DNA of 64,000 nt from Pseudoalteromonas piscicida (GTDB lineage Bacteria; Pseudomonadota; Gammaproteobacteria; Enterobacterales; Alteromonadaceae): the NCBI RefSeq assembly GCF_000238315.3, contig NZ_CP011924.1, forward strand, positions 1,776,501-1,840,500. The letters are read 5' to 3'. Under the pieces are notes generated by a model. The model had not been told where the DNA came from. It worked only from the letters and a program-made list of their open reading frames with translations, and made no database searches. Shown in pieces: positions 1-64,000 of this stretch. The translations under genes were made by a program, and so were the position numbers. Within the stretch, counting starts at the first letter, position 1, and the number at the start of each line of letters is the position of its first letter.

Positions 1-2756
1 ATCAGTCCCCCTAGCAACTCGGTTAACTGTCTTGAAATTGTCAGCCCCAGACCAGTACCACCAAATTTTCGACTAGTAGAGCCATCTTCTTGCTGAAAAG
101 CCTCAAATATTAATGACAATTTAGACGTGCTAATCCCTATACCAGTATCTCTTACTATAAACTCAAGCGCATCGCCCATATCCTCCAAGGTTATTTGCTC
201 GGTACTAAGAGTGACTTTTCCTTCACTAGTAAACTTAATTGCATTACTCAACAAGTTTTTCAAAACTTGCTCTACACGCTTTCTATCAGAGTTGATAAGC
301 ACTCCTTGGCAATGATCATTAATTTCGAAGTGAATATTTTTCCCATTTGCCACTGGAGTAAACATTCTTTTCATGTTTTCAAGCAGTAAGTTAACTGAAA
401 ATTCTTCTTTAATGATCTCTAACTTACCAGCTTCTATTTTTGATAAATCTAAGATTTCATTGATCAAACTGAGTAAGTCATTACCGCTTTGGTGAATAAT
501 GGTTGCGGATTCGACATCTTCGTCTGTTAGCTGCCCACTCTCATTGTTCATAAGTCCTTTTGCCAATAACAACAAACTGTTAAGTGGTGTACGTAACTCA
601 TGCGACATATTCGCTAGAAACTCGCTTTTATATTTGCTCGCAAGTTGAAGCTCATCGGCCCTTGCTTCGAGCTCAGCTTTCAAGGTGTTAAGTTTGAGAT
701 TTCGCTGCTCTAACTCTTCCTTTTTCTGTTCTAATTCAACGGTTTTCTGCTCTAAATCAACATTACTTTGCTCTAATTTGTCTTGCTTTCGTTCTAAGTC
801 CGCTTGAGTCGATTGGAGTGTTTGCGTTTGCTCTTCCAATAAACAGCTCTGCTTTTGCGTTTTTTCGAGTAGCTCATCCACCTTTTGCCGCGCTTGCAAA
901 ATATTCAGCATAACAGCAATAGACTCACTCGATTGAGCGAGAAACTCTTGGATGACCTCATCTTGCTTTTCGCTATATGCAATCTCAATAATACCTTTTA
1001 GATCTTCTTCAATTAACAATGGCAAAAAAATGATTTCCGTTGGCTGAGCTTTACCTAAGCCAGAACTGACCTCAATATAGCCTTCAGGTACAGGGCTAAA
1101 GGTCACTATTTTCTTTTCTTTCATGACTTGCCCAACTAACCCTTCGCCAACCTCAAATGTATGTGTCGACTGCTTCCTATTGTCAAAAGCATAGCTAGCT
1201 TGCAACTGGCACTTATCCTGTTCAACGAGATATATGCCGCCAACACATGCTTTTGTATAGCTCGCAAGATAATGTATTGAAGCTTCAGCCAACAGAGCCG
1301 TTTTGTCGATGCTACGCAACTCAACATTTAGCTGATTTAAGCCATTTTTAATCCAGCTCTGGGCCCTATTCTCCATCTCGCTCCGTTGCAATGATTCAAG
1401 CATGTCGCGCAACGCCGATGAGAGTCGATCTTTGGGTCCTCGCTGCTGTATATCAATATTATAATTATGCTTGGCTATCTGGTTTGCCTGCTGCTCAACT
1501 TGCTTAAAACTCAAACGCATATCCGACAAAGTTCGAGCGATTAAATCTCGCTCGCTTCTTTGCGAAAACTCCACATCCAGCTCTCCTTGAGCCATCAGTT
1601 GTGCTTTAGCTAAAATAGCTTTGAGATTATCAGATACTGTATTTACGGCTGTGGACAATTCATGTAATTCGTCATTGCTTGATAGAGTAAGTCGTTCACC
1701 ATCAAGGAACCCCTGAGCAAGCTCTTCTGATTTATGTTGAATTGCACCAATAGAGCGGGTGAGAAAACGTGAGAACCCCAGTGCAACAAAAAGAGACAGA
1801 AGTATTGCAACCAAGGTGGTTACCCAAATAATATTGAGGATGGCATTTTCAGCATCAAATAAAGCTGTCACATGCTCTTCTTCTTGAATAGACATCATCT
1901 GGTCGAGTTCATCGACCGTTAGATTAATATCATTTACTAAAGGGATTGCGCGATTCGTTAAAATAAATTGCGCTTTGTTCCAGTTTTTTTTATTCCTTTC
2001 CGCCACAATGTTTTTTGCACTATCCACATATATCTCTTTGTTGCGTAGAATATTCAACCACGATGCGGAACTGCCCATCGTTGATTGATAGCTAGTATCT
2101 ATACTGTCAATAACACTGCTAAACTCACCCAGCTTGCTGTAAAGCTCTGACTCGCCACCATCAAAATCACCTGAAAGATAATAGCCAAGTTGAGCTTCAA
2201 TTAACGTCGTAATATAGCGAAGGTTGGCGAGTTGAATAGAAGCCTGTTGCGGCACTTGATTCGTGTTAATTAACGTTGACAGACTTTCTTGTAAGCTTTG
2301 AGAAGAGGGTTTAAAACTATTTGTAAATAAGTCTTTCGAGACCGTATTTTCACGACTCCAGGCGATATTCTCGATATCGTATTGGATCTCCCTAAACTGC
2401 TTCAGCTGTGCATTCAATTCGTCGAGTGAAATAGCTATACGACCACTTAACTTCATTTCAGATAAGCGTGTCGTTTGCCTATCAATAATTCGCCAAGACT
2501 TAGCTCTTTTTGCGATAAAATACTTGCTTTCAGTCTCTATATTCCCCAACAGCATATAACCACGTAGCAACGCGAGAGAAGTTTGTAATTCAGTTTCTAT
2601 TACACCTAACGATCTGACCATTGGTAGCACATGATCAGAAAGGTACTCTCGCATCGTTTTTACATCTACCGTTTTTTGATAGATAAAAATCGAAGAAAAT
2701 ACCACTATCAATAAAATTGAAGAAAATGTAACGGTAAGTTTATGTGCCAGCTTCAT
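1..2756 (-). CDS. Membrane sensor histidine kinase, C-terminus cut by window edge
   Basis: An open frame of 918 codons starts at ATG 2756 and runs off the window at base 1. Read by hand it shows a transmembrane segment near residues 7-25, a long helical periplasmic sensor, a second transmembrane segment near 300-325, a HAMP region, a GAF domain (about 460-600), a coiled coil of LEQK-type heptads (about 620-700), then HisKA with SHELRTPLN (phospho-accepting His about 719) and HATPase with NLLSNAIKFT, DTGIGI, FEAFQQED and GGTGLGLTISRQL. It should autophosphorylate on His and pass phosphate to a receiver. Proteins of this build often carry C-terminal receiver domains, which would lie outside the window. 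The start overlaps the end of the upstream REC-EAL gene by 17 bp, so the two are probably translationally coupled and functionally paired. Confidence 0.9.
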   Translation of the reverse strand, partial: MKLAHKLTVTFSSILLIVVFSSIFIYQKTVDVKTMREYLSDHVLPMVRSLGVIETELQTSLALLRGYMLLGNIETESKYFIAKRAKSWRIIDRQTTRLSEMKLSGRIAISLDELNAQLKQFREIQYDIENIAWSRENTVSKDLFTNSFKPSSQSLQESLSTLINTNQVPQQASIQLANLRYITTLIEAQLGYYLSGDFDGGESELYSKLGEFSSVIDSIDTSYQSTMGSSASWLNILRNKEIYVDSAKNIVAERNKKNWNKAQFILTNRAIPLVNDINLTVDELDQMMSIQEEEHVTALFDAENAILNIIWVTTLVAILLSLFVALGFSRFLTRSIGAIQHKSEELAQGFLDGERLTLSSNDELHELSTAVNTVSDNLKAILAKAQLMAQGELDVEFSQRSERDLIARTLSDMRLSFKQVEQQANQIAKHNYNIDIQQRGPKDRLSSALRDMLESLQRSEMENRAQSWIKNGLNQLNVELRSIDKTALLAEASIHYLASYTKACVGGIYLVEQDKCQLQASYAFDNRKQSTHTFEVGEGLVGQVMKEKKIVTFSPVPEGYIEVSSGLGKAQPTEIIFLPLLIEEDLKGIIEIAYSEKQDEVIQEFLAQSSESIAVMLNILQARQKVDELLEKTQKQSCLLEEQTQTLQSTQADLERKQDKLEQSNVDLEQKTVELEQKKEELEQRNLKLNTLKAELEARADELQLASKYKSEFLANMSHELRTPLNSLLLLAKGLMNNESGQLTDEDVESATIIHQSGNDLLSLINEILDLSKIEAGKLEIIKEEFSVNLLLENMKRMFTPVANGKNIHFEINDHCQGVLINSDRKRVEQVLKNLLSNAIKFTSEGKVTLSTEQITLEDMGDALEFIVRDTGIGISTSKLSLIFEAFQQEDGSTSRKFGGTGLGLTISRQLTELLGGL

Positions 2757-4818
2757 CGATGTTCCCTTTGCTTTGTTCATCCAATACGGATAGGAATGCA
2801 GCCTCAGGCATTGGCTTATAAAACAAAAAGCCCTGATACATCTCAACACCAAGCTGAGTCAAAAAAGTAAATTGATCGCTATTCTCGACCCCTTCTGCAA
2901 CCACCTTCAAATTCAACGCATGTGCCATATTGATGATGGCGGTGGCGATTGCCACATCGTCTTTACTGTGTGGTAAATCATCGACGAAGGATTTGTCGAT
3001 CTTCAGCTTTTCAATAGGTAGCCTTTTTAAATACGCCAGTGAAGAATAGCCGGTGCCAAAGTCATCTATTGAGATGGTAATACCCCGGTCTTGAAACTCT
3101 TTTAAAATGAGCACAGCACTTTCAACATCATGTAGTATTGTTGATTCGGTTATTTCTAACTCAATGTGCTGCGACGAAATATTCCATTCATCCATAGTAC
3201 TAAACATAAAGTCACATAATCGCGGGTCCAAAAACTGTTTCCCAGAGAGATTAAATGCAATTTGGATCGTTAAGCCGGCGTCATTACATTTAGCCAAGAA
3301 ACAACATAATTGCCGAAAAAGTAACTTACCTAGACCAATGATTAGGCCTGACTGCTCAGCGATCGGAATAAAATCAGCGGGCGAAATAAATTGGTTATTT
3401 TGATTTCTCCACCTTACTAGAGCTTCTGCTCCTTGAATTGTTCCATGGGCATCAATTTTAGGCTGATAATAGAGCTCAAATTCATCGTGCTCGATGGCAT
3501 GATGAATCGCTTCCTCTAGCTCTACTCTGTCTTTTAAAGATACCTGTTGCGTAGGTTTGAAGACTCGGACTCTATCACCATCTTGTTGAATTAGACCCGC
3601 TAATGCAATTTCAGCATCACGCAAAATATCATGTGAGTATCGATATAAATGCGTATCAAAAACTAACGACGCAGAAAAGCTAATATGAAGCTTTTTTTCA
3701 CCTGCTAATAAAGGCACCATCATCGTTTCCAATACTTCCTCATTCAGCCATAGCAACACCTCGTTTATAGGAGCGGGGTTTTCTATAACAAACGCTAGTT
3801 TATCGTTTGCTACTCTGGCTAAAGTGCTTTGAGGCTGTAGTACACTCGTAACTCTATTTGTAACTTCAACGGCCATGTGATCGCAAAAGTGGTGACCATA
3901 ACTGTCACTGATCAATTTATAGCGATCGATAGAAATCAGCACCACAGCAAAGCTAGTAAGCTGCTTACTTTTCCGTGCTTGAATGTACATATCAAGCTTA
4001 TCGAGAAAAGCCGAAGTATTTAGAGTTTGAGTCAGTGGATCCAGTACCTTGCGTTCAGTAATATCACTTATTGAACCGGCCATCCGATAGGGCTTACCAT
4101 TATCAAAACGTAAAGCGGAACCGCGCATCAACAACCACCTAAATGCGCCACTTTTATTTTGCATTCGACATTCATATTCAAAGTAGTCTGTCACTCCAGA
4201 CAAATGTGCACGCAAGGCTCGTTTAAAACCAAGCATGTCATCGTCATGTAAGCGCGTTACAAATGTGGAAAAATCGGGCTCTACTTCGCCCTCTTCTAGC
4301 CCTAATATCTGTTTCCATCTAGCGGAAAGGTAAATCTCATCTGTGGTAATAAACCAGTCCCACAGAGCATCATGTGCTCCTTTTGCAGCAAGTGCGAAGC
4401 GTTCATTTGCAACATCAACATCCTGCTTTAGTCTCTTAATAGTCAAAATGGTACCAATACGAGCCATTAATACCTGAATGTTTATAGGTTTAGCTACAAA
4501 GTCGTTAGCTCCTAATTCTAAACATTTCACAACATTGTTAGTCTCATCATCACCGCTAATCATGACAACAGGCAGTGAAATAGCAGAGTGTTTTGCTCTT
4601 ATAGAAGTAAGTACTTCAACCCCTGACCCATCGGGTAGACCAATATCCATCAGAACAATATCAAAACGATTTTTTGCCAGACAGTCATACGCCATAGCAA
4701 CACTGTCTCCAGCGACAATCTGCTCAAATTCATATATTTTTAAGCATTCGACAATTAACTCTCGGCTTACGAGGTCATCATCAACAACTAAAATGCTCAC
4801 TTTTTTGTAATCTGGCAT
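2740..4818 (-). CDS. Response regulator: REC-PAS-GGDEF(degenerate)-EAL, c-di-GMP phosphodiesterase
   Basis: 692 residues. Residues 1-125 form a receiver domain (VVDDD acidic pocket, phospho-acceptor Asp in VLMDIGLPDG, MISGDDE, KPI lysine). A PAS domain of the PAS_3 type follows (about 135-260), then a GGDEF fold (about 260-420) whose signature site reads ANDKL instead of GGDEF, so cyclase activity is unlikely. The EAL domain (about 435-680) keeps EALVRWR, NLSGKQF, EITES, IDDFGTGYSSLAYLKR and the EGVE motif, so c-di-GMP hydrolysis is expected. AGAAGGA stands just before ATG 4818. It lies directly upstream of and overlaps the sensor kinase, its likely phosphodonor. Part of its 5' end is included in a tandem duplication. 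Confidence 0.93.
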   Translation of the reverse strand: MPDYKKVSILVVDDDLVSRELIVECLKIYEFEQIVAGDSVAMAYDCLAKNRFDIVLMDIGLPDGSGVEVLTSIRAKHSAISLPVVMISGDDETNNVVKCLELGANDFVAKPINIQVLMARIGTILTIKRLKQDVDVANERFALAAKGAHDALWDWFITTDEIYLSARWKQILGLEEGEVEPDFSTFVTRLHDDDMLGFKRALRAHLSGVTDYFEYECRMQNKSGAFRWLLMRGSALRFDNGKPYRMAGSISDITERKVLDPLTQTLNTSAFLDKLDMYIQARKSKQLTSFAVVLISIDRYKLISDSYGHHFCDHMAVEVTNRVTSVLQPQSTLARVANDKLAFVIENPAPINEVLLWLNEEVLETMMVPLLAGEKKLHISFSASLVFDTHLYRYSHDILRDAEIALAGLIQQDGDRVRVFKPTQQVSLKDRVELEEAIHHAIEHDEFELYYQPKIDAHGTIQGAEALVRWRNQNNQFISPADFIPIAEQSGLIIGLGKLLFRQLCCFLAKCNDAGLTIQIAFNLSGKQFLDPRLCDFMFSTMDEWNISSQHIELEITESTILHDVESAVLILKEFQDRGITISIDDFGTGYSSLAYLKRLPIEKLKIDKSFVDDLPHSKDDVAIATAIINMAHALNLKVVAEGVENSDQFTFLTQLGVEMYQGFLFYKPMPEAAFLSVLDEQSKGNIDEAGT

Positions 4819-5534
4819 AATCCTTCTAACATCCTTAATTCGTAGTGCTCAGAGTGATCAACATTAGACTTGCGTTAAATTCACTTCCAATAGCCAGCTA
4901 TTGGTGCGTAACCTCGCCTTGCCATCTCAAAAACTCCCTGGTTAGAAAAGGAAATAATTTAATATATTTTTAAAAACAATGAGTTAACTCATTCGTTACT
5001 CAAGCCTCGGGTTAATTATCTAACTTCCCGCGACTCTAACTTCAAAGATGAGCATACTGAGATCCCCAATACTATTATTAAAGATTAGTCTAAAAAGTGT
5101 ATGTTGATAAATATTTAACCAACTAAGTCAGCAAGCTTTTAACTGCTGATGAAAGAGCTGGTTGTCCTCTTTCCAATTTAGATATGAACTATCTAACGAT
5201 AGGTAAGTACATAGTATCTTTGTACGAGGGTGCCAATATCTCCGCCTCGAATGTAGAGGAAAAAGATAAAACACTTAGTGAAAATATTAGAAGTGAGTTT
5301 TAGTTAAAGGCTGTGATAGGGCCTGTTTATCCTGCAAGTTTGTTTTTGCAGCAGTTTGATTGGTATTTTACAAGACAGAGCCTGCGTAACATAGTTATTC
5401 TATGTGAGTCAGGCGATAAAGACTCTGTGCCCCTACAAAGTCACCTTACCCCACATCCTTGTGGGGTAACACAGAAAAATGCCAATCCAGCGCTGCCCTT
5501 TGGGTTCACCTGAGTGCGCTTTGTTCATTGTTGC
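4819..5534. other. Long intergenic region, repeat-rich and hairpin-rich
   Basis: No convincing gene. It holds the 143-bp interspersed repeat (4873-5015), an AT-rich stretch likely to carry the promoter of the REC-EAL gene (minus strand), and from about 5313 a series of stem-loops: CTGCAA/TTGCAG (5332-5351), a three-tier stem (5375-5428, arms ACAGAG/CTCTGT, CCTG/CAGG, ACATAG/CTATGT), and TTACCCCACA-TCCT-TGTGGGGTAA (5446-5469). The 66-codon frame at 5313-5513 falls across these stems and is probably not coding. Confidence 0.6.
4873..5015. repeat. Interspersed ~143-bp palindromic repeat, copy 1
   Basis: This stretch is similar to 52203-52342, nearly 50 kb away. Shared blocks include TTCACTTCCAAT, GCCAGCTATTGGTGCGTAA, GGAAATAATTTAAT and AAAAACAATGAG. 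It contains the inverted repeat CCAATAG-CCAG-CTATTGG (imperfectly nested) and the perfect palindrome AATGAGTTAACTCATT. It resembles a non-coding REP/MITE-like family and lies upstream of the REC-EAL gene. Confidence 0.75.
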
Positions 5535-5553
5535 TCAACTTTTGCCTAGATTA
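5313..5553. repeat. Hairpin-rich element (possible structured RNA or repeat), copy 1
   Basis: Consecutive inverted repeats at 5332-5351, 5375-5428 and 5446-5469, then a CAGCGCTG palindrome (5488-5495) and the left arm of GCCTAG-ATTA-CTAGGC at 5544. The density of perfect stems with 4-8 nt loops is well above that of neighbouring intergenic DNA. Whether it is transcribed, and in which direction, cannot be seen. It recurs at 6443-6683 within duplication copy 2. Confidence 0.5.
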
Positions 5554-5948
5554 TGCTTTAGTCTCTTAATAGTCAAAATGGTACCAATACGAGCCATTAA
5601 TACCTGAATGTTTATAGGTTTAGCTACAAAGTCGTTAGCTCCTAATTCTAAACATTTCACAACATTGTTAGTCTCATCATCACCGCTAATCATGACAACA
5701 GGCAGTGAAATAGCAGAGTGTTTTGCTCTTATAGAAGTAAGTACTTCAACCCCTGACCCATCGGGTAGACCAATATCCATCAGAACAATATCAAAACGAT
5801 TTTTTGCCAGACAGTCATACGCCATAGCAACACTGTCTCCAGCGACAATCTGCTCAAATTCATATATTTTTAAGCATTCGACAATTAACTCTCGGCTTAC
5901 GAGGTCATCATCAACAACTAAAATGCTCACTTTTTTGTAATCTGGCAT
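5535..5948 (-). CDS. Receiver-only truncated copy of the REC-PAS-GGDEF-EAL gene
   Basis: Created by the tandem duplication. The first 132 residues are identical to the upstream regulator and contain the complete receiver domain with acidic pocket, phospho-acceptor Asp and KPI lysine. At the junction (5554) the frame continues into intergenic DNA for six codons (HNLGKS) and stops. The leader and ribosome binding site are duplicated too, so the protein may be made. A free-standing receiver could compete for phosphate from the sensor kinase as a phosphate sink; equally it may be a non-functional remnant. Confidence 0.75.
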   Translation of the reverse strand: MPDYKKVSILVVDDDLVSRELIVECLKIYEFEQIVAGDSVAMAYDCLAKNRFDIVLMDIGLPDGSGVEVLTSIRAKHSAISLPVVMISGDDETNNVVKCLELGANDFVAKPINIQVLMARIGTILTIKRLKHNLGKS

Positions 5949-6683
5949 AATCCTTCTAACATCCTTAATTCGTAGTGCTCAGAGTGATCAACATTAGACT
6001 TGCGTTAAATTCACTTCCAATAGCCAGCTATTGGTGCGTAACCTCGCCTTGCCATCTCAAAAACTCCCTGGTTAGAAAAGGAAATAATTTAATATATTTT
6101 TAAAAACAATGAGTTAACTCATTCGTTACTCAAGCCTCGGGTTAATTATCTAACTTCCCGCGACTCTAACTTCAAAGATGAGCATACTGAGATCCCCAAT
6201 ACTATTATTAAAGATTAGTCTAAAAAGTGTATGTTGATAAATATTTAACCAACTAAGTCAGCAAGCTTTTAACTGCTGATGAAAGAGCTGGTTGTCCTCT
6301 TTCCAATTTAGATATGAACTATCTAACGATAGGTAAGTACATAGTATCTTTGTACGAGGGTGCCAATATCTCCGCCTCGAATGTAGAGGAAAAAGATAAA
6401 ACACTTAGTGAAAATATTAGAAGTGAGTTTTAGTTAAAGGCTGTGATAGGGCCTGTTTATCCTGCAAGTTTGTTTTTGCAGCAGTTTGATTGGTATTTTA
6501 CAAGACAGAGCCTGCGTAACATAGTTATTCTATGTGAGTCAGGCGATAAAGACTCTGTGCCCCTACAAAGTCACCTTACCCCACATCCTTGTGGGGTAAC
6601 ACAGAAAAATGCCAATCCAGCGCTGCCCTTTGGGTTCACCTGAGTGCGCTTTGTTCATTGTTGCTCAACTTTTGCCTAGATTA
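5554..6683. repeat. Tandem duplication A, copy 2 (1130 bp)
   Basis: Second, head-to-tail copy of the 1130-bp unit. Its right end lies exactly at the loop edge of the hairpin GCCTAG-ATTA-CTAGGC (6674-6689), so only this copy keeps both arms of the hairpin; in copy 1 the right arm is replaced by the start of the next unit. The absence of visible differences between copies points to a recent event or to an assembly artefact. Confidence 0.95.
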
Positions 6684-6914
6684 CTAGGCGGCAAGTCGAG
6701 TGTCGCGATCAAAACACACTCAGGAGAACAAAAATCAAACAGCAAAGGTCAACAGGCCCAAGAGAATAGTTCGAATGACATCAGCCCATTTGATTACATA
6801 GATCAGCATAATACTAGAGGCTACTTATCTCGCAATTTTTTAAAAACCCTACTCCAGCGCCCTGTGTCACCAAGACAGCTAGAGAGGCTATTCATTATCC
6901 TAAACTACGGTTAA
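5949..6914. other. Intergenic region, second copy of the repeat-rich leader
   Basis: Repeats 4819-5553 (143-bp repeat at 6003-6145, hairpin-rich element at 6443-6683), then 231 bp of unique DNA up to the cysS stop codon. A 101-codon frame (6609-6914, plus strand) crosses the end of the duplication into the unique part; it lacks a clear ribosome binding site, shows no recognisable domain and overlaps the hairpins, so I do not call it a gene. Confidence 0.55.
6003..6145. repeat. Interspersed ~143-bp palindromic repeat, copy 2
   Basis: Copy carried along in duplication A; see the palindromes CCAATAG/CTATTGG and AATGAGTTAACTCATT. Not an independent insertion. Confidence 0.75.
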
Positions 6915-8294
6915 TTAAGCTTTACGCCAAGTTGTTTTGCCCGCGCTATCTTCTAACACAACGCCTAAGGCAGTTAGCGCATCACGCGCTTCATCCGCTG
7001 CAGCCCAATCTTTATTTTCACGAGCGCTGCGGCGCTTTTCAATCAATGCTTCGATTTGCGCCACTTCGTCGTCGTCTTGTTCGCCCTGTAAGAAAGATTC
7101 AGGGTCTTGCTGCGCAATACCCAAGATTTCCGCCAGTTTCACAAGAATAAACGCGTGCTCACCAGCAGCTTTTGCGTCACTATCTTTTAAGCGATTCACT
7201 TCTTTTGATAATTCAAAAATCACTGGCAGTGCTTCCGGCGTGTTGAAGTCGTCGTTCATTGCTGTCTCAAAACGTTCAGCGTAAGCATTACCTTTAAGCT
7301 CGATTTCCACCAGTTCAACGCCACGTAGCGCAGTGTAAATACGCTCAAGCGACGAACGTGCTTGTTCAAGGTTTTCTTGTGAATAGTTTAGCTGGCTACG
7401 ATAATGACCATTGATCAAGAAATAGCGTACTGTTTCTCTATCAAAGGCTTTAAGCACTTCACGTACGGTAAAGAAATTGCCAAGAGACTTAGACATTTTC
7501 TCTTTGTTAACTTGTACCATGCCGGTGTGGATCCAAGTGTTCACATAACGGCCGTTATTTGCGCAGCAAGATTGAGCGATCTCGTTTTCATGGTGCGGGA
7601 ACTGCAGATCTGACCCCCCACCGTGAATATCAAAAAATTCGCCCAAATGCTTTGAACTCATTGCGCTACACTCAATGTGCCAACCTGGACGACCTTCGCC
7701 CCACGGAGATTGCCACGCAGGCTCACCCGCTTTGGCTTTTTTCCACAATACAAAGTCGAGCGGATCATCTTTGTCTTGCGCTACCTCAACGCGTGCACCC
7801 GCTTGTAGCATTTCTAAATCTTGCTGAGATAACTGACCATATTGCTCAAACGTTGAAACATCAAACAATACATCCCCGTCCTTCGCAACGTAAGCATGGC
7901 CTTTTTCAATCAAGCGCGCGATCATCTCGATGATTTCGTCCATATGCCCTGTTACCGTCGGCTCAATATCCGCAGGTAACATGTTCAATGCGGTAAAGTC
8001 TTCATGCATGGCTTTAGTCATGCGAACCGTTAGGTCATTAATCGACTCGTTGTTTTCCGCGGCGCGTTTAATGATTTTGTCATCCACGTCAGTAATATTA
8101 CGCACATATGTGACGTCATAACCTAAATAACGTAAATAACGGTTCATTACGTCAAATGAAACATAAGTGCGTGCGTGTCCTACATGACAGAAATCATAGA
8201 TAGTGATACCACACACGTACATATCAACCTTGCCTTCTTTGAGCGGTTTAAAAGGGGCTTTTTGGCGAGTGAGTGTGTTGAAAATCTGCAACAT
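6915..8294 (-). CDS. cysS: Cysteinyl-tRNA synthetase
   Basis: 459 residues, the usual length. Class I aminoacyl-tRNA synthetase that charges tRNA-Cys with cysteine in the cytoplasm. The first catalytic motif is HVGH (residues 37-40) inside [18 protein letters not shown], the second is KMSKS near residue 266. Conserved Cys/His residues for the active-site zinc are seen (VCGI, WHIECS, HHENE). GGAAG precedes ATG 8294. It is a single gene, convergent with nothing and divergent from ppiB, the arrangement known in E. coli. Confidence 0.97.
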
Positions 8295-8494
8295 GTAGTT
8301 TTCTTCCTAAGTACGGTTCATTTTTTTAACAAAAGTGCTTTTAATCATACCACCTGCATAGCAGCGCCTCTAGATTTTAATAACGAATTACAGCAGTTTT
8401 TTGATTTTTTACACTGATTTTTAAGGAATGCTTTTTCACAAAAGCCCAGTTGATATAAAATAGGCTTTTATCATTCAACACGATGGACACTAAC

Positions 8495-8989
8495 ATGGTT
8501 GTTTTAGAAACAAATCACGGCGAAATCCGTATTAATCTTTTCGCTGACAAAGCGCCTGAAACGGTAGCTAACTTCCTAAACTACGTAAACAGCGAGTTTT
8601 ATAACGGTACTATTTTCCACCGTGTAATCGACGGCTTTATGGTTCAAGGTGGCGGATTCGCATCGGGTATGGAACAAAAACCAGTTGAAGCACCGATCAA
8701 AAACGAAGCAAACAACGGTGTTGCAAACAAAGTGGGTACCCTAGCAATGGCACGTACGCCAGATCCACACTCTGCAACTGCACAATTTTTTATCAATGTT
8801 AACGACAACGACTTCCTTAACTTCTCAAGCGAAACATCGCAAGGTTGGGGTTACTGTGTATTCGGTGAAGTTGTTGAAGGCATGGACGTAGTAAATAAGA
8901 TTAAAGGTGTTGCTACTGGTTCTTCTGGTTTCCACCAAGACGTACCGCTTGAAGATGTGATCATCGAAAAAGCATACGTTGCTGAGTAA
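8495..8989 (+). CDS. ppiB: Peptidyl-prolyl cis-trans isomerase B (cyclophilin)
   Basis: Cytoplasmic cyclophilin of 164 residues that speeds proline isomerisation. Cyclophilin motifs present: [31 protein letters not shown] and [11 protein letters not shown] prefer ATG 8495 ([11 protein letters not shown]), which matches the N-terminus of the family; an upstream in-frame ATG at 8483 would add four residues. No strong ribosome binding site is visible for either. Divergent from cysS and followed by lpxH, as in enterobacteria. Confidence 0.95.
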
Positions 8990-9006
8990 TATCCTACTTT
9001 TTATTC

Positions 9007-9030
9007 AAGGCCAGTATTTATGCTGGCCTT
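9007..9030 (+). terminator. Stem-loop after ppiB
   Basis: AAGGCCAG / CTGGCCTT with an 8-nt loop and a T-rich tail (ATTAGTTTT), between ppiB and lpxH. The lpxH ribosome binding site lies just beyond, so lpxH may be reached by read-through. Confidence 0.6.
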
Positions 9031-9047
9031 ATTAGTTTTGAGGTCCC

Positions 9048-9773
9048 ATGGGTAAAACCTATTTTATCGCCGACTTGCATTTAACCGAGCACCGCACTGA
9101 TATCACCGACGCATTTTTCGCTTTTCTCGACCATCATATGACCGCCGATGTCGACGCTTTATATATTCTGGGTGACTTTTTTGAAGTGTGGATTGGAGAC
9201 GATGAAAAAGACCCTTATGCCCTCCATATTGCACAAAAACTGCGAAGCTTGAGTCACCTTGGCATTCAAGTCTTTTTTATTCACGGTAACCGTGATTTTT
9301 TAATCAAACAGGCCTTTGCTGACGAATGCCAAATGACTTTGCTACCTGAACAAGCGGTGATAGATCTATACGGCACACCGACGGTGATTTTGCACGGCGA
9401 CGAAATGTGTACACAAGACGAAGCCTATCAAAAGTTTCGCAGGAAAAGCCGCGGTTGGTGGTGGCCAAGACTAATGCTTGCTATGCCACTTTGGTATCGT
9501 CGCAGAGTCGCTGCAAATGCAAGACGTAAGAGCATTGAAAACCAAAAAGGCAAGCCCCTCGAGATTCTAGATGTCACCGAAGAAGCCGTGGCACACATGT
9601 TTGCAAAACATGGCGTAGACAATATGATCCACGGCCATACCCACAGACCAAAAGTGCACACCTACCAAGGTGGTAAGGTACGCACTGTACTTGGCGATTG
9701 GTATTCACAAAGCTCATATATCGTCGTTGACGAAAGTGGTAAACAGCAGCTCCTTTGCCATCCTTTTGAATAA
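9048..9773 (+). CDS. lpxH: UDP-2,3-diacylglucosamine diphosphatase
   Basis: 241 residues. Metallophosphoesterase that cleaves UDP-2,3-diacylglucosamine to lipid X and UMP, the fourth step of lipid A synthesis, at the inner face of the cytoplasmic membrane. The metal-binding motifs are in order: DLHL (11-14), GDFFEVWIGDD, GNRDF, HGDEMCT and HGHTHRP. GAGGT lies seven bases before ATG 9048. It follows ppiB by 58 bp, a conserved pairing in gammaproteobacteria. Confidence 0.96.
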   Translation: MGKTYFIADLHLTEHRTDITDAFFAFLDHHMTADVDALYILGDFFEVWIGDDEKDPYALHIAQKLRSLSHLGIQVFFIHGNRDFLIKQAFADECQMTLLPEQAVIDLYGTPTVILHGDEMCTQDEAYQKFRRKSRGWWWPRLMLAMPLWYRRRVAANARRKSIENQKGKPLEILDVTEEAVAHMFAKHGVDNMIHGHTHRPKVHTYQGGKVRTVLGDWYSQSSYIVVDESGKQQLLCHPFE

Positions 9774-9782
9774 ATTTAGTAC

Positions 9783-10565
9783 TTAAATAGGCGTACCTGA
9801 GTGGAACTTGAAATCAAGGTCCGGTGAGCTGATAAGCTCGTTTTCCACTTGCTGAAATAGTTGAATGCGCCCAGCTACGTCACAGCGCTTAGGATCGGTT
9901 GCGTTGGCAACTTGATGCGCTAAATCAATATAGTCTTGGTAATGTCTGGCTTCTGAGCGCAATAGCGACACATAAAACTTAGCAATTTCTTGATCTAAGT
10001 GTGGCGCAAGTTTGGCGAAACGTTCACATGAACGAGCCTCAATGTAAGCACCAATGATTAGTTTATCAACCAGGGCTGCGGGTTCATAAGTGCGAATGTG
10101 TTTAATCATTCCAGACGCATAGCGAGATGCTTGTACGTACTCGACGGGAATATCACGTGCCTTTATGATCTCTAGTACCTGTTCAAAGTGATGTAGCTCT
10201 TCTTTGATAAGCCTCACCATCTTACTCAAAATATCTTGATTGTAAGCATATTCAGGTCGTGCAGTTAGCTCACCAATCAATTCATTTTTACTGCCTGAAA
10301 ACTCGCCATCACCAACACTGCGATAAATAAAATCTTCGTAAGGTTGCAACCAACTTAACAAGGTTTTTGCAGACGCATCATCTATTGCATATTTACGAAT
10401 TAAGAAGGCCGCGCTTTGTGCCGCTTTTAACTCACAATGCATATGATCGATAAGCAACAATGGTAAGTGCTCGCTTTGCTTTGCTTTTTCAATCCAAGCT
10501 TGCGGGGTTTCACAGCCCAAAAACTGATTAATAGGCGTAAGTAAATCTATGTACTTTTCTAACAT
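9783..10565 (-). CDS. miaE: tRNA-(ms2io6A37) hydroxylase
   Basis: 260 residues. Non-haem di-iron monooxygenase that hydroxylates the isopentenyl group of ms2i6A at position 37 of tRNAs reading U-starting codons. The carboxylate/histidine ligands of the ferritin-like four-helix bundle are seen: DHMHCELKAA, EELHHFEQ, EARSCERF and RSEARHYQ. The reaction needs oxygen, fitting an aerobic marine bacterium. Convergent with lpxH (stop codons 10 bp apart). No strong ribosome binding site is visible before ATG 10565. Confidence 0.93.
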   Translation of the reverse strand: MLEKYIDLLTPINQFLGCETPQAWIEKAKQSEHLPLLLIDHMHCELKAAQSAAFLIRKYAIDDASAKTLLSWLQPYEDFIYRSVGDGEFSGSKNELIGELTARPEYAYNQDILSKMVRLIKEELHHFEQVLEIIKARDIPVEYVQASRYASGMIKHIRTYEPAALVDKLIIGAYIEARSCERFAKLAPHLDQEIAKFYVSLLRSEARHYQDYIDLAHQVANATDPKRCDVAGRIQLFQQVENELISSPDLDFKFHSGTPI

Positions 10566-11942: not shown

Positions 11943-12740
11943 TTAACTTGCTAGTTTTTCTTTTGGCGGAAACTTAGGTTCAAATAACCCTAGCTCTTTT
12001 GCTTGTTCAACCTGCGACATGATATCCATTTTAGAGATCTCAAATAAGTCGTTGATTGAGTTAATTGTATAGTAAACAGGTTGCATAATGTCGATGCGAT
12101 AAGGTGTACGTAACACATCTAACACTTTAAGCGGATTAATTTCTGGTTTGTCAGAGTAAACATATTGAGTCTCACCTGGGCTTGATAGCACACCGCCACC
12201 GTAGATACGCAGACCTTGCTCGGTTTGCATCAAACCGAATTCAACGGTAAACCAGTATAAGCGTGCAAGGTATACGCGATCTTTCTTCTCAGCGGCATAG
12301 CCCAGTTGACCATACTTGTGTGTAAACTCGGCGAATGCTGGATTCGTTAGCATTGCACAATGACCAAAAATCTCATGGAAGATATCTGGTTCTTGCAGGT
12401 AATCAAACTCTTCTCTTGAGCGAATAAAGGTCGCTACAGGAAACTGTTTGTTGGCAAGTAATCGAAAGAACTCATCAAAATCAATCAGTGCCGGTACTGG
12501 CGCTACCTGCCAACCCGTTTCTTTCGCTAGTGCTTCGTTTAACTCACTTAGTTGTGGAATACGGTCTTTTGGTAAATTAATTTTCTCAAGACCTGCCAAA
12601 TATTCATCACAGGCTTTGCCTTCGATACACGCTAGCTGACGTGCAACTAACTCTGACCAAATTTGATTCTCTTCATCTGTCCAAGCAATAACGCCATTTT
12701 CATCTGGCTGCTTAGATACATATTTACTTGCTTTAGCCAT
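11943..12740 (-). CDS. phhA: Phenylalanine 4-hydroxylase
   Basis: 265 residues, the usual size of the bacterial monomeric enzyme without the regulatory ACT domain. Converts phenylalanine to tyrosine with O2 and tetrahydropterin. The iron ligands are the two histidines of [10 protein letters not shown] and the glutamate of FTVEFGL. First gene of the phhA-phhB operon. A TyrR/PhhR-type operator lies about 190 bp upstream (12926-12943). Confidence 0.97.
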
Positions 12741-36244: not shown

Positions 36245-36321
36245 TGGTCGGCGATGCAGGATTTGAACCTGCGACCCCTTGGACCCAAACCAAGTGCGCT
36301 ACCAAGCTGCGCTAATCGCCG
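36245..36321 (-). tRNA. tRNA-Pro(UGG), array copy 9 (last transcribed)
   Basis: 77 nt with encoded CCA. Acceptor CGGCGAT/ATCGCCG, anticodon arm CTTGG-TTTGGGT-CCAAG giving anticodon UGG, T-arm GCAGG-TTCAAAT-CCTGC. No obvious T-rich terminator stem follows on the minus strand. Confidence 0.97.
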
Positions 36322-36342
36322 AACATATATATTTTGTAGAAG

Positions 36343-36419
36343 TGGTCGGCGATGCAGGATTTGAACCTGCGACCCCTTGGACCCAAACCAAGTGCGCTAC
36401 CAAGCTGCGCTAATCGCCG
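36343..36419 (-). tRNA. tRNA-Pro(UGG), array copy 8
   Basis: Identical to the neighbouring copies; separated from them by the same 21-nt AT-rich spacer. Confidence 0.97.
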
Positions 36420-36440
36420 AACATATATATTTTGTAGAAG

Positions 36441-36517
36441 TGGTCGGCGATGCAGGATTTGAACCTGCGACCCCTTGGACCCAAACCAAGTGCGCTACCA
36501 AGCTGCGCTAATCGCCG
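36441..36517 (-). tRNA. tRNA-Pro(UGG), array copy 7
   Basis: Identical 77-nt gene, 98-bp period. Confidence 0.97.
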
Positions 36518-36538
36518 AACATATATATTTTGTAGAAG

Positions 36539-36615
36539 TGGTCGGCGATGCAGGATTTGAACCTGCGACCCCTTGGACCCAAACCAAGTGCGCTACCAAG
36601 CTGCGCTAATCGCCG
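36539..36615 (-). tRNA. tRNA-Pro(UGG), array copy 6
   Basis: Identical 77-nt gene, 98-bp period. Confidence 0.97.
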
Positions 36616-36636
36616 AACATATATATTTTGTAGAAG

Positions 36637-36713
36637 TGGTCGGCGATGCAGGATTTGAACCTGCGACCCCTTGGACCCAAACCAAGTGCGCTACCAAGCT
36701 GCGCTAATCGCCG
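36637..36713 (-). tRNA. tRNA-Pro(UGG), array copy 5
   Basis: Identical 77-nt gene, 98-bp period. Confidence 0.97.
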
Positions 36714-36734
36714 AACATATATATTTTGTAGAAG

Positions 36735-36811
36735 TGGTCGGCGATGCAGGATTTGAACCTGCGACCCCTTGGACCCAAACCAAGTGCGCTACCAAGCTGC
36801 GCTAATCGCCG
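36735..36811 (-). tRNA. tRNA-Pro(UGG), array copy 4
   Basis: Identical 77-nt gene, 98-bp period. Confidence 0.97.
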
Positions 36812-36832
36812 AACATATATATTTTGTAGAAG

Positions 36833-36909
36833 TGGTCGGCGATGCAGGATTTGAACCTGCGACCCCTTGGACCCAAACCAAGTGCGCTACCAAGCTGCGC
36901 TAATCGCCG
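36833..36909 (-). tRNA. tRNA-Pro(UGG), array copy 3
   Basis: Identical 77-nt gene, 98-bp period. Confidence 0.97.
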
Positions 36910-36930
36910 AACATATATATTTTGTAGAAG

Positions 36931-37007
36931 TGGTCGGCGATGCAGGATTTGAACCTGCGACCCCTTGGACCCAAACCAAGTGCGCTACCAAGCTGCGCTA
37001 ATCGCCG
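36931..37007 (-). tRNA. tRNA-Pro(UGG), array copy 2
   Basis: Identical 77-nt gene, 98-bp period. Confidence 0.97.
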
Positions 37008-37028
37008 AACATATATATTTTGTAGAAG

Positions 37029-37105
37029 TGGTCGGCGATGCAGGATTTGAACCTGCGACCCCTTGGACCCAAACCAAGTGCGCTACCAAGCTGCGCTAAT
37101 CGCCG
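37029..37105 (-). tRNA. tRNA-Pro(UGG), array copy 1 (first of the array)
   Basis: Same 77-nt gene. Its upstream (promoter-side) spacer, 37106-37124, differs from the array spacer, so this copy marks the ancestral junction with tRNA-His and the unit that was amplified is tRNA plus its downstream 21 nt. Confidence 0.97.
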
Positions 37106-37124
37106 ACTAATTTTGGCATGTAGA

Positions 37125-37201
37125 TGGGGCGACTGATGGGACTTGAACCCACGACAACCGGAATCACAATCCAGGGCTCTACCAACTGAGCTACAGCCGC
37201 C
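37125..37201 (-). tRNA. tRNA-His(GUG)
   Basis: 77 nt including the extra G at -1 paired with C73, as required for HisRS. Acceptor GCGGCTG/CAGTCGC with one G-U pair, anticodon loop TTGTGAT (anticodon GUG), T-arm GTGGG-TTCAAGT-CCCAT, encoded CCA. Confidence 0.96.
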
Positions 37202-37224
37202 ACTACATGTGGATTAAAATAAGA

Positions 37225-37301
<77 letters not shown>

Positions 37302-37341
37302 AAACTCGTAAACATCTTCATGCTACTTCTTATTTTAAAAG

Positions 37342-37418
37342 TGGTCGGCGATGCAGGATTTGAACCTGCGACCCCTTGGACCCAAACCAAGTGCGCTACC
37401 AAGCTGCGCTAATCGCCG
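37342..37418 (-). tRNA. tRNA-Pro(UGG), first gene of the tRNA operon
   Basis: Identical in sequence to the nine array copies but set apart, promoter-proximal, before tRNA-Arg. Its downstream spacer differs from the array spacer. Confidence 0.97.
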
Positions 37419-60795: not shown

Positions 60796-60852
60796 ATGAA
60801 TTTCATCATACGCAACAGCAACACATATTTCTTTTTTAGCTTCTTTAGGTGA
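60796..60852 (+). CDS. pheL: phe operon leader peptide
   Basis: 18 codons, MNFIIRNSNTYFFFSFFR then TGA: six phenylalanines, five of them within the last seven residues. Starved for charged tRNA-Phe, the ribosome would stall on the TTC-TTT-TTT-AGC-TTC-TTT run and allow the antiterminator to form. GTAAGG lies upstream of ATG 60796. Confidence 0.88.
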   Translation: MNFIIRNSNTYFFFSFFR

Positions 60853-60853
60853 A

Positions 60854-60919
60854 GAGGCTTGACTGTTCGCGAGTGAAAAAGAATAGCTAAGCCTCCCAAC
60901 TTCGGGAGGCTTTTTTTTT
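60854..60919 (+). promoter_or_regulatory. Phenylalanine attenuator: antiterminator and terminator
   Basis: GAGGCTT (60854-60860) can pair with AAGCCTC (60889-60895) as antiterminator; alternatively GCCTCCC (60891-60897) pairs with GGGAGGC (60904-60910) followed by nine T, an intrinsic terminator. The two structures exclude each other. Mechanism inferred from the classical E. coli pheA attenuator. Confidence 0.85.
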
Positions 60920-60941: not shown

Positions 60942-61802
60942 ATGACACAAAATACATTAGATGCCCTTAGGCATGACATCAATGAGATAGATTCGGAATT
61001 ACTGATTTTACTGGCAAAGCGACGTCGCATTAGTCATGGTGTGCTGGAATATAAGATTGCCAACAACAAACCTATCCGTGATGAAGCACGTGAGCAGGCA
61101 CTGCTGGAGAAACTGATCCGCTATGGTAAATCTCTGGGTCTTGATGCCTTTTATATAAACAGCGTTTTCCAAACTATCTTAGAAGACTCTGTATTAAACC
61201 AGCAAGCCATGCTGCAAAAGAACTTAAACCCCGATGCCGTAGGTGATACACACCGCGTTGCCTACTTGGGTGGACAAGGTTCTTATAGCCAGCTTGCTTG
61301 TCATAAATACTTCAGCCGTCGTCCCGGTAAGCTTGTGGAAATGGGTTGCCAAAGCTTTGAGCAAATCACCGAGCAGGTAGAGAAAGGCCAAGCGGACTTT
61401 GGTATTTTACCTATTGAAAATACCAGTTCAGGCAGTATCAACGAAGTATTCGATTTATTGCAACATGCACAAGTATCTATTGTAGGCGAAGTAACCCATA
61501 CCGTAGAACATTGCCTCCTAGCATTACCAGATACAGAATTACAAGCCATCGACAAAATTTATGCGCACCCTCAACCTTTTGCCCAGTGCAGCCGTTTTAT
61601 TCAAGGTCTGGGGGATATTCAGCATGAAACTTGCGACTCGACCTCTAGTGCATTAAAACAAGCAGCAGAGCACCCAAACAGTGCCGCGATTGGCTCGGCA
61701 CAAGCTGGAAAGAATATGGGTCTAGAAGTGGTGAAATCTGGTCTTGCGAATCAGACCGAAAACCATAGCCGCTTTATTGTAGTAGCAAGAAAAGCACTTT
61801 AA
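60942..61802 (+). CDS. pheA: Chorismate mutase / prephenate dehydratase without ACT domain
   Basis: 286 residues. N-terminal chorismate mutase (1-95; LDALRHDINEIDSELLILLAKRR) and prephenate dehydratase (about 103-286; YLGGQGSYSQLA, FGILPIENTSSG, and ENHSRFIVVARKAL). Makes phenylpyruvate from chorismate. It ends with TAA at 61800-61802 where homologues run on into the ACT domain; the same frame continues at once with GTG. The catalytic part is complete, so activity should persist but feedback inhibition by phenylalanine would be lost unless the ACT part rejoins. Confidence 0.93.
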   Translation: MTQNTLDALRHDINEIDSELLILLAKRRRISHGVLEYKIANNKPIRDEAREQALLEKLIRYGKSLGLDAFYINSVFQTILEDSVLNQQAMLQKNLNPDAVGDTHRVAYLGGQGSYSQLACHKYFSRRPGKLVEMGCQSFEQITEQVEKGQADFGILPIENTSSGSINEVFDLLQHAQVSIVGEVTHTVEHCLLALPDTELQAIDKIYAHPQPFAQCSRFIQGLGDIQHETCDSTSSALKQAAEHPNSAAIGSAQAGKNMGLEVVKSGLANQTENHSRFIVVARKAL

Positions 61803-62096
61803 GTGTCTACTCAAATCCCAACAAAAACTAGTTTAATTATGGCCACCAAACAGCAAGTAGGCTCACTTGCTGACGCGCTGATGGTATTTAAACAGCACAA
61901 TATCAATATGGTTAAGCTAGAGTCACGCCCAGTACCTGGTAACCCTTGGGAAGAAGTCTTTTACGTAGATTTGCTTGCCAATATTGCAGACTCACAAGTC
62001 CAAGTAGCACTTGAAGAATTAAAAGATCATACCCAATTTGTACGCTTACTGGGCTGCTACCAAAGCGAGTCTTTGCAAGCCGTAGATGTGTTGTAA
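61803..62096 (+). CDS. Detached ACT domain of PheA
   Basis: 97 codons in the same frame directly after the pheA stop. Matches the regulatory part of P-proteins: TSLIMATKQQVGSLADAL, the Phe-binding ESRP motif, GNPWEEVFYVDL and LLGCYQSE are conserved. The only start is GTG 61803, with no proper ribosome binding site (the preceding bases AGCAAGAAAAGC are weak). Could be made by re-initiation, by read-through of UAA-G, or not at all. May be one gene interrupted by a point mutation. Confidence 0.8.
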   Translation: MSTQIPTKTSLIMATKQQVGSLADALMVFKQHNINMVKLESRPVPGNPWEEVFYVDLLANIADSQVQVALEELKDHTQFVRLLGCYQSESLQAVDVL

Positions 62097-62126: not shown

Positions 62127-62162
62127 AAAAAGCCAGAGCGCAAATTGCATTCTGGCTTTTTT
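62127..62162. terminator. Bidirectional terminator after pheA
   Basis: AAAAAGCCAGA / TCTGGCTTTTT with a 13-nt loop, T-runs on both sides, between pheA (plus) and the discoidin-repeat gene (minus). Confidence 0.85.
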
Positions 62163-62195: not shown

Positions 62196-64000
62196 CTATT
62201 CGCTGCTAAGGCCAAGGAGCTCTATTTCTGAGATCTGTACTAGGCCATCGTTATTCGCATTTTTGCTAATATTTAGACGATAACTGCTATAGGCAAAAGC
62301 ATTGGAGAAAGTAAACGCTCTTCGTTGTAAGCGCTCATCCCAGCTTTCCCCCACCCAAACCGCGACTTCTGTCCACGTCTCACCGCCATCATTAGAACCT
62401 AGCAACTGGAAGTTTTCGGGATCGCGTTCTGGTGCATCATTGGCACTGGTAATAGCCAAACCACTCACAATCTGTGGCGCAGTAAAATCGGCTTGGATCC
62501 AAGATGGTGATTCCTCTGTTGGCGGGCCTTGCCACTCATTGTGATCTAGCCATTTTGTCTCGGTATCATTATCAAACGCCTTTTGTTCACTTTCCGCATC
62601 TCCAATACGATTACGCGCGGTGAAGCTTGTTCCTGCCAAATCAGACAAATCTTCAAGTGCATACTGAGGTCCAGCGAGTTCAATTTCGGCTATTTGCACT
62701 AATCCATCATTATTCGCATTTTTACTGATAGACAAGCGATAATGTGAGTAAGCCAAGCCATTAGCAAACGCGAAGGCACGACGTTCAAAACGCGATTCAA
62801 ACGATTCCCCTACCCAAGTATTTAATACTTGCCACACTTCCCCATCGTGAGATGCTAAAAGTTGGAAGTTTTCAGGGTCACGCTCCGGTGCATCATTGGC
62901 GCTAGTAATGTACAAAGTATTTACCGCTTGCGCTTGCGGCAAGCTAACTTGAACCCAAGCCGGATTTTCAACAGTGGGTGGCCCCTGCCAGTCGTTGTGA
63001 TCGAGCCATTTAGTCTCAACATTTTTATCAAATGCTTGTGCTGCGCCCTCTGAATCACTAATACTAAAACGCGCCGAGTAACTCGCACCTTGTACTTGTG
63101 CATGATCTAATCCAGAGATTTCTGGGCCGATTAATTCAATCTCAGCAAGCTGCATCAGGCCATCATTATTTTTGTTCTTGGTTATCTCAAGACGATAGCT
63201 TTGGTATGGCAATTGATTCGCTACCGCAAAGCTTTGGCGCTCCCCTCGCGCTTCAAAAGACTCACCAACCCAATTGCTCAACCGCTGCCATGTAACACCA
63301 TTATCGTTAGAGCCAAACAAAGCAAAGTTCTCAGGATCTCGCTCTGGTGCATCATTGGCACTCGTTATCGCAAGCTGATTAACCGCCACCGCATCATTAA
63401 AGTCTACTTGGATCCAAGAAGGCGCTTCAACGGTGGGCGGGCCTTGCCAATCATTATGATCTAGCCACTTAGTAGTTGGGTCGTTATCAAATGCCTTATC
63501 TTGGTTTTCCGCCTCACCGATACTGTTGCTTGCCGTGACCACAAACGTCTCAGTATCTGTATGGTCAACGCTCGGATAAACCGGACCAACAAATTGAATT
63601 TCTCCAATTTGCAGTAAGCCATCGTTATTTTTGTTCTTTGTCACTGCTATTCGGTAACTTGTATATTTTTGCGCATTACCAAATACAAAGCCTTGACGTT
63701 CAAAGCGCGCTTCAAACGACGCCCCAACCACATTACCCAAATTAACCCAACTCGCTCCCTCATCGTTAGAAGCTAATAAGGAGAAGTTTTCAGGGTCTCG
63801 CTCTGGGGCATCATTAGCACTGGTAATGTAAACACCGCTAATTGCTTGTTGAGTGGGAAAATCCACTTGGATCCAAGACGGCGCTTCCTCAGTAGGTGGC
63901 CCCTGCCAGTCATTGTGGTCAAGCCATTTAGTTTGTGGATCGCCATCAAATGCTTTGTCTGCACTCTCAGCATCACCAATAGCATTTCTTGCTGTGATAG
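62196..64000 (-). CDS. Tandem discoidin-like (F5/8 type C) repeat protein, 5' part outside window
   Basis: 601 codons, open to the window end; the frame simply continues past 63866 with no true start in view. Four repeats with a period near 459 bp (153 residues), each with AFDNDPxTKWLDHNDWQGPP, WIQVDF, ITSANDAPERDPENF, LLxSNDxGxTW, WVGESFEARxERRxFxF, YRLxITKNxNNDGLxQIAEIEL. This is the jelly-roll fold of carbohydrate-binding F5/8-type-C modules. The conserved parts between repeats are nearly identical, suggesting recent unit duplication. Probably the C-terminal adhesion or polysaccharide-binding part of a secreted enzyme or surface protein. Confidence 0.85.
   Translation of the reverse strand, partial: ITARNAIGDAESADKAFDGDPQTKWLDHNDWQGPPTEEAPSWIQVDFPTQQAISGVYITSANDAPERDPENFSLLASNDEGASWVNLGNVVGASFEARFERQGFVFGNAQKYTSYRIAVTKNKNNDGLLQIGEIQFVGPVYPSVDHTDTETFVVTASNSIGEAENQDKAFDNDPTTKWLDHNDWQGPPTVEAPSWIQVDFNDAVAVNQLAITSANDAPERDPENFALFGSNDNGVTWQRLSNWVGESFEARGERQSFAVANQLPYQSYRLEITKNKNNDGLMQLAEIELIGPEISGLDHAQVQGASYSARFSISDSEGAAQAFDKNVETKWLDHNDWQGPPTVENPAWVQVSLPQAQAVNTLYITSANDAPERDPENFQLLASHDGEVWQVLNTWVGESFESRFERRAFAFANGLAYSHYRLSISKNANNDGLVQIAEIELAGPQYALEDLSDLAGTSFTARNRIGDAESEQKAFDNDTETKWLDHNEWQGPPTEESPSWIQADFTAPQIVSGLAITSANDAPERDPENFQLLGSNDGGETWTEVAVWVGESWDERLQRRAFTFSNAFAYSSYRLNISKNANNDGLVQISEIELLGLSSE

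Follow-up and report, generated by a model that had tools for sequence, protein, structure and literature searches.

The primary work on truncated forms of Escherichia coli PheA is reportedly that of Zhang et al. 1998. In E. coli, a PheA shortened to its first 300 residues lacks the regulatory domain, is only weakly feedback-inhibited and has a higher Km (PMC4719340), and the truncated pheAev2, which lacks domain R, is described as feedback-insensitive (PMC2089068). No paper joining pheA, a premature stop codon and the ACT domain was found in the literature search.

In the window (the whole stretch of 64,000 nucleotides analysed here), pheA is interrupted by an in-frame TAA between its catalytic part and its ACT domain. 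The preferred reading, with a probability of about three in four (0.74), is that of a recent nonsense allele, private to this genome, which would yield an ACT-less chorismate mutase-prephenate dehydratase, probably active and phenylalanine-insensitive, and keeps the leader attenuator. The source genome has 5,488,179 bases in two contigs, and its relatives are Pseudoalteromonas. The features of the region are:

60796..60852, + strand: pheA leader peptide frame, 18 codons, MNFIIRNSNTYFFFSFFR plus stop (leader frames compared with relatives)
60813..60919, + strand: putative Phe leader / attenuator region (Rfam RF01859, alignment)
60942..61799, + strand: chorismate mutase (CM_2) and prephenate dehydratase (PDT) part of pheA (ORF list, translation, Pfam)
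61800..61802, + strand: in-frame TAA, a Gln codon in close relatives (sequence, alignment with relatives)
61803..62096, + strand: ACT-domain frame, 97 codons, from a GTG (inherited Val codon) to the natural stop (ORF list, translation, Pfam)
62128..62162, + strand: terminator-like hairpin 3' of the ACT frame (by eye)

The catalytic piece comprises 286 codons and ends in VVARKAL. The TAA is codon 287 of pheA (table 11), and the GTG at 61803 adjoins it in frame. Translation gives a single reading frame throughout 60942-62096, made up of 286 residues, one stop, and 97 residues holding ESRPVPGNPWEE, which confirms the earlier note's description of a TAA after VVARKAL followed directly by a GTG and an intact ACT frame. 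Its further remark, that no base has been gained or lost at the split, is borne out by the alignment with close relatives, which has no indel there. By Pfam, both catalytic domains of the first piece are complete and in one frame (CM_2 at residues 9-88, PDT at 106-284), and the second piece matches ACT at residues 17-73 with 26.3 bits (E 6.3e-6), slightly below the 27-bit cut-off. The TAA lies 3 codons past the end of the PDT match, and 16 codons separate it from the ACT match. The prephenate dehydratase chain 2qmx aligns with both pieces, chain positions 9-181 with residues 106-283 of the first and 199-278 with residues 7-86 of the second, so that the domain division agrees with solved structures. 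Residues 2-98 of the first piece are matched by chain 1ecm, the chorismate mutase domain of E. coli, and the ACT part carries the ESRP and GNPWEE motifs. The ACT domain, C-terminal on the same polypeptide in a P-protein, here lies beyond the TAA at codon 287, while the first piece has the make-up of an ACT-less PheA, with the catalytic domains whole and the regulatory domain missing.

Upstream, the region looks like a phe attenuator from its sequence, though it falls short of the formal Rfam score. The match to Phe_leader (RF01859) has 43.3 bits (E 1.7e-5), and the gathering score of 55 bits is not reached. A G+C-rich terminator-like hairpin with a T run is seen by eye at 60889-60919, and both it and the leader frame align in 13 relatives. 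The earlier note calls the leader attenuator intact, and the Phe-rich leader frame and the hairpin are indeed kept. Downstream of the ACT frame, the next long frame in the ORF list is convergent (62196 onwards, - strand). It occupies 62196-63998 of the window and runs past its end, and contains four similar repeats of ∼145 residues, each with ITSANDAPERDPENF.

Judged by the DNA of pheA codons 1-286, the closest named relatives are P. flavipulchra NCIMB 2033 (97.0%) and Pseudoalteromonas sp. HM-SA03 (96.7%), and the P. piscicida record 36Y_RITHPW is distant (80.0%). All 108 Pseudoalteromonas genomes, the source genome counted, have a strong pheA match, and in 106 of the 107 others the site is crossed by an open frame 385 or more codons long. 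The sole exception in the genus, G078, is shifted out of frame near codon 64 and is intact from there through the ACT part (locus L172, C29:162700-164300); it is open across the site and broken elsewhere, and the split at the TAA is shared by none of the 107. At the order level, matches at E 1e-40 were obtained in 222 of the 257 genomes, and among the 150 of these matches listed, the open frame is 384 codons or longer in all 149 others. The codon at the site is CAA or CAG (Gln) in close relatives, and CAA, CAG, CAT, TAT or AAA in the farther Pseudoalteromonas loci examined (one set of forward-strand loci only, and a second of loci at least 78% alike). Such variety indicates a loose linker position, and a single C-to-T transition suffices to give the stop. 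The comparison of PheA with close relatives that the earlier note had proposed as a check therefore finds a sense codon at the site, and the stop is known from one genome only. In a protein search with the catalytic piece, the shortest of the best 120 of 2929 matches has 383 residues, and no short form occurs among the matches listed; the database is clustered at 90% identity, which could hide a strain with the same split. A search of plasmid DNA gave no match.

The interruption appears young. Relative to seven close relatives, the private changes in codons 1-286 are 5 silent and 0 replacement, and those in the ACT part 2 silent and 0 replacement, with the stop counted separately. Between the ACT part and that of the relative G045 (locus L066) there are 20 silent codon differences and no replacement. 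This lack of replacements indicates that the ACT domain was under selection until lately, and the earlier suggestion of a very recent stop is upheld by its being private to one genome, a single transition in origin, and unaccompanied by private replacements elsewhere in pheA. With no more than two private silent changes, the ACT part does not allow a very recent stop to be told from a frame that is still used. Selection for the split itself was also considered, on the ground that its position seems too exact for chance. There are 151 possible single-base changes in pheA that make a stop, 7 of them in codons 282-298, and the corresponding numbers for transitions are 35 and 2, which makes the boundary position a 5–6% coincidence for a random nonsense change. 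Of the 12 stop-making transitions at codon 287 or later, 2 fall at the boundary. The coincidence is not compelling, and the position was rejected as a strong argument for selection.

A sequencing or assembly error, with the true base as in the relatives and pheA intact, is unlikely, although only one base in one genome would have to be wrong. Over ∼95 kb aligned with the relative G034, 75 ORFs (150 aa or longer) were matched and pheA is the sole real gene broken, which argues against error; each of two other broken hits runs antisense to a longer frame, of 427 codons in one case and 207 in the other, and these longer frames look like ClpX and RseA. In the comparison with G045, breaks are commoner in G045 than in the source genome, with 11 of 66 source ORFs cut short in G045, some of them at stretch ends. 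A wider comparison covered 480 kb each of G075 and G072, of which 382 and 419 kb aligned. Relative to G075, 10 of 296 ORFs are interrupted in the source genome, against 1 of 301 in the reverse direction. Nine of the ten breaks are in-frame stops (four near the end or start) and one is frameshift-like; so small a number of frame-breaking indels again speaks against error. Interior stops, defined as those at 5–95% of the length, number 6 of 296 (vs G075) and 9 of 318 (vs G072) in the source genome, 1 of 301 and 1 of 291 in G075, and 4 of 321 and 4 of 291 in G072, which shows that a relative carries them as well. Six genes in ∼480 kb have an interior stop that is absent at the same place from both G075 and G072, namely pheA and the genes for an MscS-like channel, an AraC-type regulator, a fatty acid hydroxylase, a WYL regulator and a TonB protein. 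These private stops are somewhat commoner in this assembly than in G075 (6 against 1 of 301, Fisher P 0.07), which lends an error some support. In every genome compared, private changes are most often C>T, with a three-way share of 41.8% here, 40.2% in G075 and 38.7% in G072, and a four-way share of 41.0% here, 39.3% in G075, 40.5% in G072 and 44.4% in G034. A private spectrum so like that of the relatives argues against an error signature and equally against a mutator, and a base-calling error behind the TAA is held to be unlikely. A mutator or mutagenised strain, hinted at by the 10 of 296 against 1 of 301 and an apparent G:C-to-A:T signature, was rejected on the interior stops of G072 and the similar C>T shares.

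The remaining alternatives accept the TAA and concern its translation and the fate of the product. A two-polypeptide enzyme, in which ribosomes restart at the GTG to make a free ACT domain that would regulate the catalytic part in trans, would suit the adjacency of TAA and GTG in one frame and the ACT part without private replacement. It is nevertheless very improbable. The pairing of bases -21 to -3 with the anti-Shine-Dalgarno sequence amounts to -0.7 kcal/mol before the GTG and -8.3 before the pheA ATG, so the second frame lacks a good start signal of its own, and the GTG is not a gained start but a Val codon inherited in common with several relatives. The want of the split in all 107 other genus genomes points the same way, as does a search with the ACT piece, in which none of 18 database proteins equals or contains it. 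One of these, P0009, is identical over its last 78 residues to G078, whose pheA is frameshifted upstream, and orphan ACT frames can thus be by-products of broken genes. The earlier note's real two-polypeptide enzyme has little support, given the inherited codon and the near absence of Shine-Dalgarno pairing, and its programmed read-through fares no better. In read-through of that kind, relatives would be expected to keep both the stop and the frame beyond it, and those examined all have a sense codon. When the whole genome was scanned with a pattern for tRNAs bearing the anticodon TTA, 59 matches came up, none of them an ochre suppressor (reversed control: 114, more than the real count). These are tRNA-Leu(TAG), tRNA-Lys(TTT) or no tRNA by ARAGORN, with six tRNA-Leu repeats assigned by identical matched letters, and the pattern would miss any tRNA whose T-arm is unusual. 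Leaky read-through, with a near-cognate tRNA-Gln occasionally reading UAA to give some full-length enzyme, is highly improbable too. It draws on 23 exact copies of tRNA-Gln(TTG) in the genome and on the Gln codon replaced in pheA, as in 5 of the 6 private interior stops. Gln codons, however, are natural targets of C-to-T nonsense, the suppressor anticodon is missing from the 59 matches, 6 of the 23 copies, at the far contig end, could be untrimmed overlap, and the multiplication is not specific to Gln, since tRNA-Pro is multiplied too and tRNA-Leu and tRNA-Met share the array. A broader version, in which a leaky ochre is tolerated through the multiplied tRNA-Gln or a GTG restart and yields mostly uninhibited enzyme with a little regulated enzyme or free ACT, is very doubtful; if true, it would be a natural, tunable loosening of phenylalanine feedback. 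Lastly, the truncated enzyme might be unstable or inactive, with pheA effectively a pseudogene and the strain dependent on external phenylalanine. The other private stops do hit ordinary genes, but CM_2 and PDT are both complete, codons 1-286 have no private replacement and a search of the genome with the catalytic piece found no second PDT, and this outcome is scarcely to be expected.

Several of the loci met in these comparisons have features of their own. The AraC-type regulator and the fatty acid hydroxylase with interior stops are neighbouring and divergent (locus L183, contig 1, about 2050139-2052071) and are perhaps a module decaying together; the hydroxylase of G075 has its own stop at codon 24 of the longer frame in G072, and is not whole there either. 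Among the ACT-piece matches, P0005-P0008 and P0011-P0013 are ACT-only frames from an internal Met (P0006 standing for 20 sequences, on 5 contigs) and may be contig edges or broken pheA genes. Contig 1 carries 17 of the 23 copies of tRNA-Gln(TTG) towards one end and the remaining 6 at the opposite end. Seven other genomes have 4–5 matches each, six of them with 3–4 exact full copies and one with four at 94%. The copies stand in tandem with tRNA-Met and tRNA-Leu(TAG) in an array (L120-L136) at positions 1-10035 and again at 4251685-4253375 of contig 1, and nine further matches at 75% occur, eight of them at 111-base spacing. As the array is found at both contig ends, part of it, including the 6 copies, may be untrimmed overlap, and it represents either a private expansion or assembly inflation. 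In the window, 36245-37418 (- strand) holds ten tRNA-Pro(TGG) genes, nine at 98-base spacing, compared with 3 each in G075, G034, G045 and G072 (one G072 copy is cut by the stretch boundary). The tRNA matches total 152, against 68–113 in the other genomes, in a search with capped scoring.

Under the preferred reading of a recent nonsense allele, one C-to-T transition would have changed a Gln codon in the linker of pheA to an ochre stop, leaving a 286-residue chorismate mutase-prephenate dehydratase without an ACT domain. This enzyme should still work, given that both catalytic domains are complete and that E. coli PheA stripped of its regulatory domain serves as a working enzyme. By analogy it is probably active and uninhibited. 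Inhibition by phenylalanine would be lost, the limits on the step would be leader attenuation, chorismate supply and consumption of Phe, and the ACT frame would be a left-over rather than a second gene. A shift of control at the PheA step from feedback to attenuation is a reasonable expectation, with which the engineered E. coli PheA cut at residue 300 agrees. Apart from pheA itself, the catalytic piece hits a single frame in the genome, one of 385 codons, with 30% identity across residues 4-145. Class II DAHP synthase has one match in the genome and PF00793 likewise a single match, a 285-codon frame which, from its length alone, may be the related KdsA. A phenylalanine-4-hydroxylase-like gene (PF00351) lies at 12045-12713 of the window (- strand), and by its sequence could possibly be an outlet for excess Phe.

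The split supports neither a new gene architecture nor recoding; it is a possible natural feedback-resistant allele, and otherwise ordinary. Should the base be genuine, the Phe branch may have shed its end-product inhibition and kept attenuation, which would allow a simple test of the weight of each control layer. Compared with the P-protein of E. coli, the order CM-PDT-ACT, the Phe leader and the ESRP and GNPWEE motifs are alike, whereas the ACT domain is severed here by the stop at codon 287. Strain-level nonsense alleles (incipient pseudogenes) share with it a private single-step stop, otherwise unchanged amino acids and the presence of several others in the genome, but here the stop spares a complete enzyme, so that the loss may be confined to regulation. 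The engineered PheA(fbr) and pheAev2 of E. coli likewise consist of a catalytic part without regulatory domain, cut after PDT. They are engineered and over-expressed (PMC4719340, cut at 300; PMC2089068), in contrast to the present form, which is natural and chromosomal, has its own leader and is cut earlier (at 286). If the base is real, it would be a natural counterpart, in a wild marine strain, of the engineers' truncated PheA.
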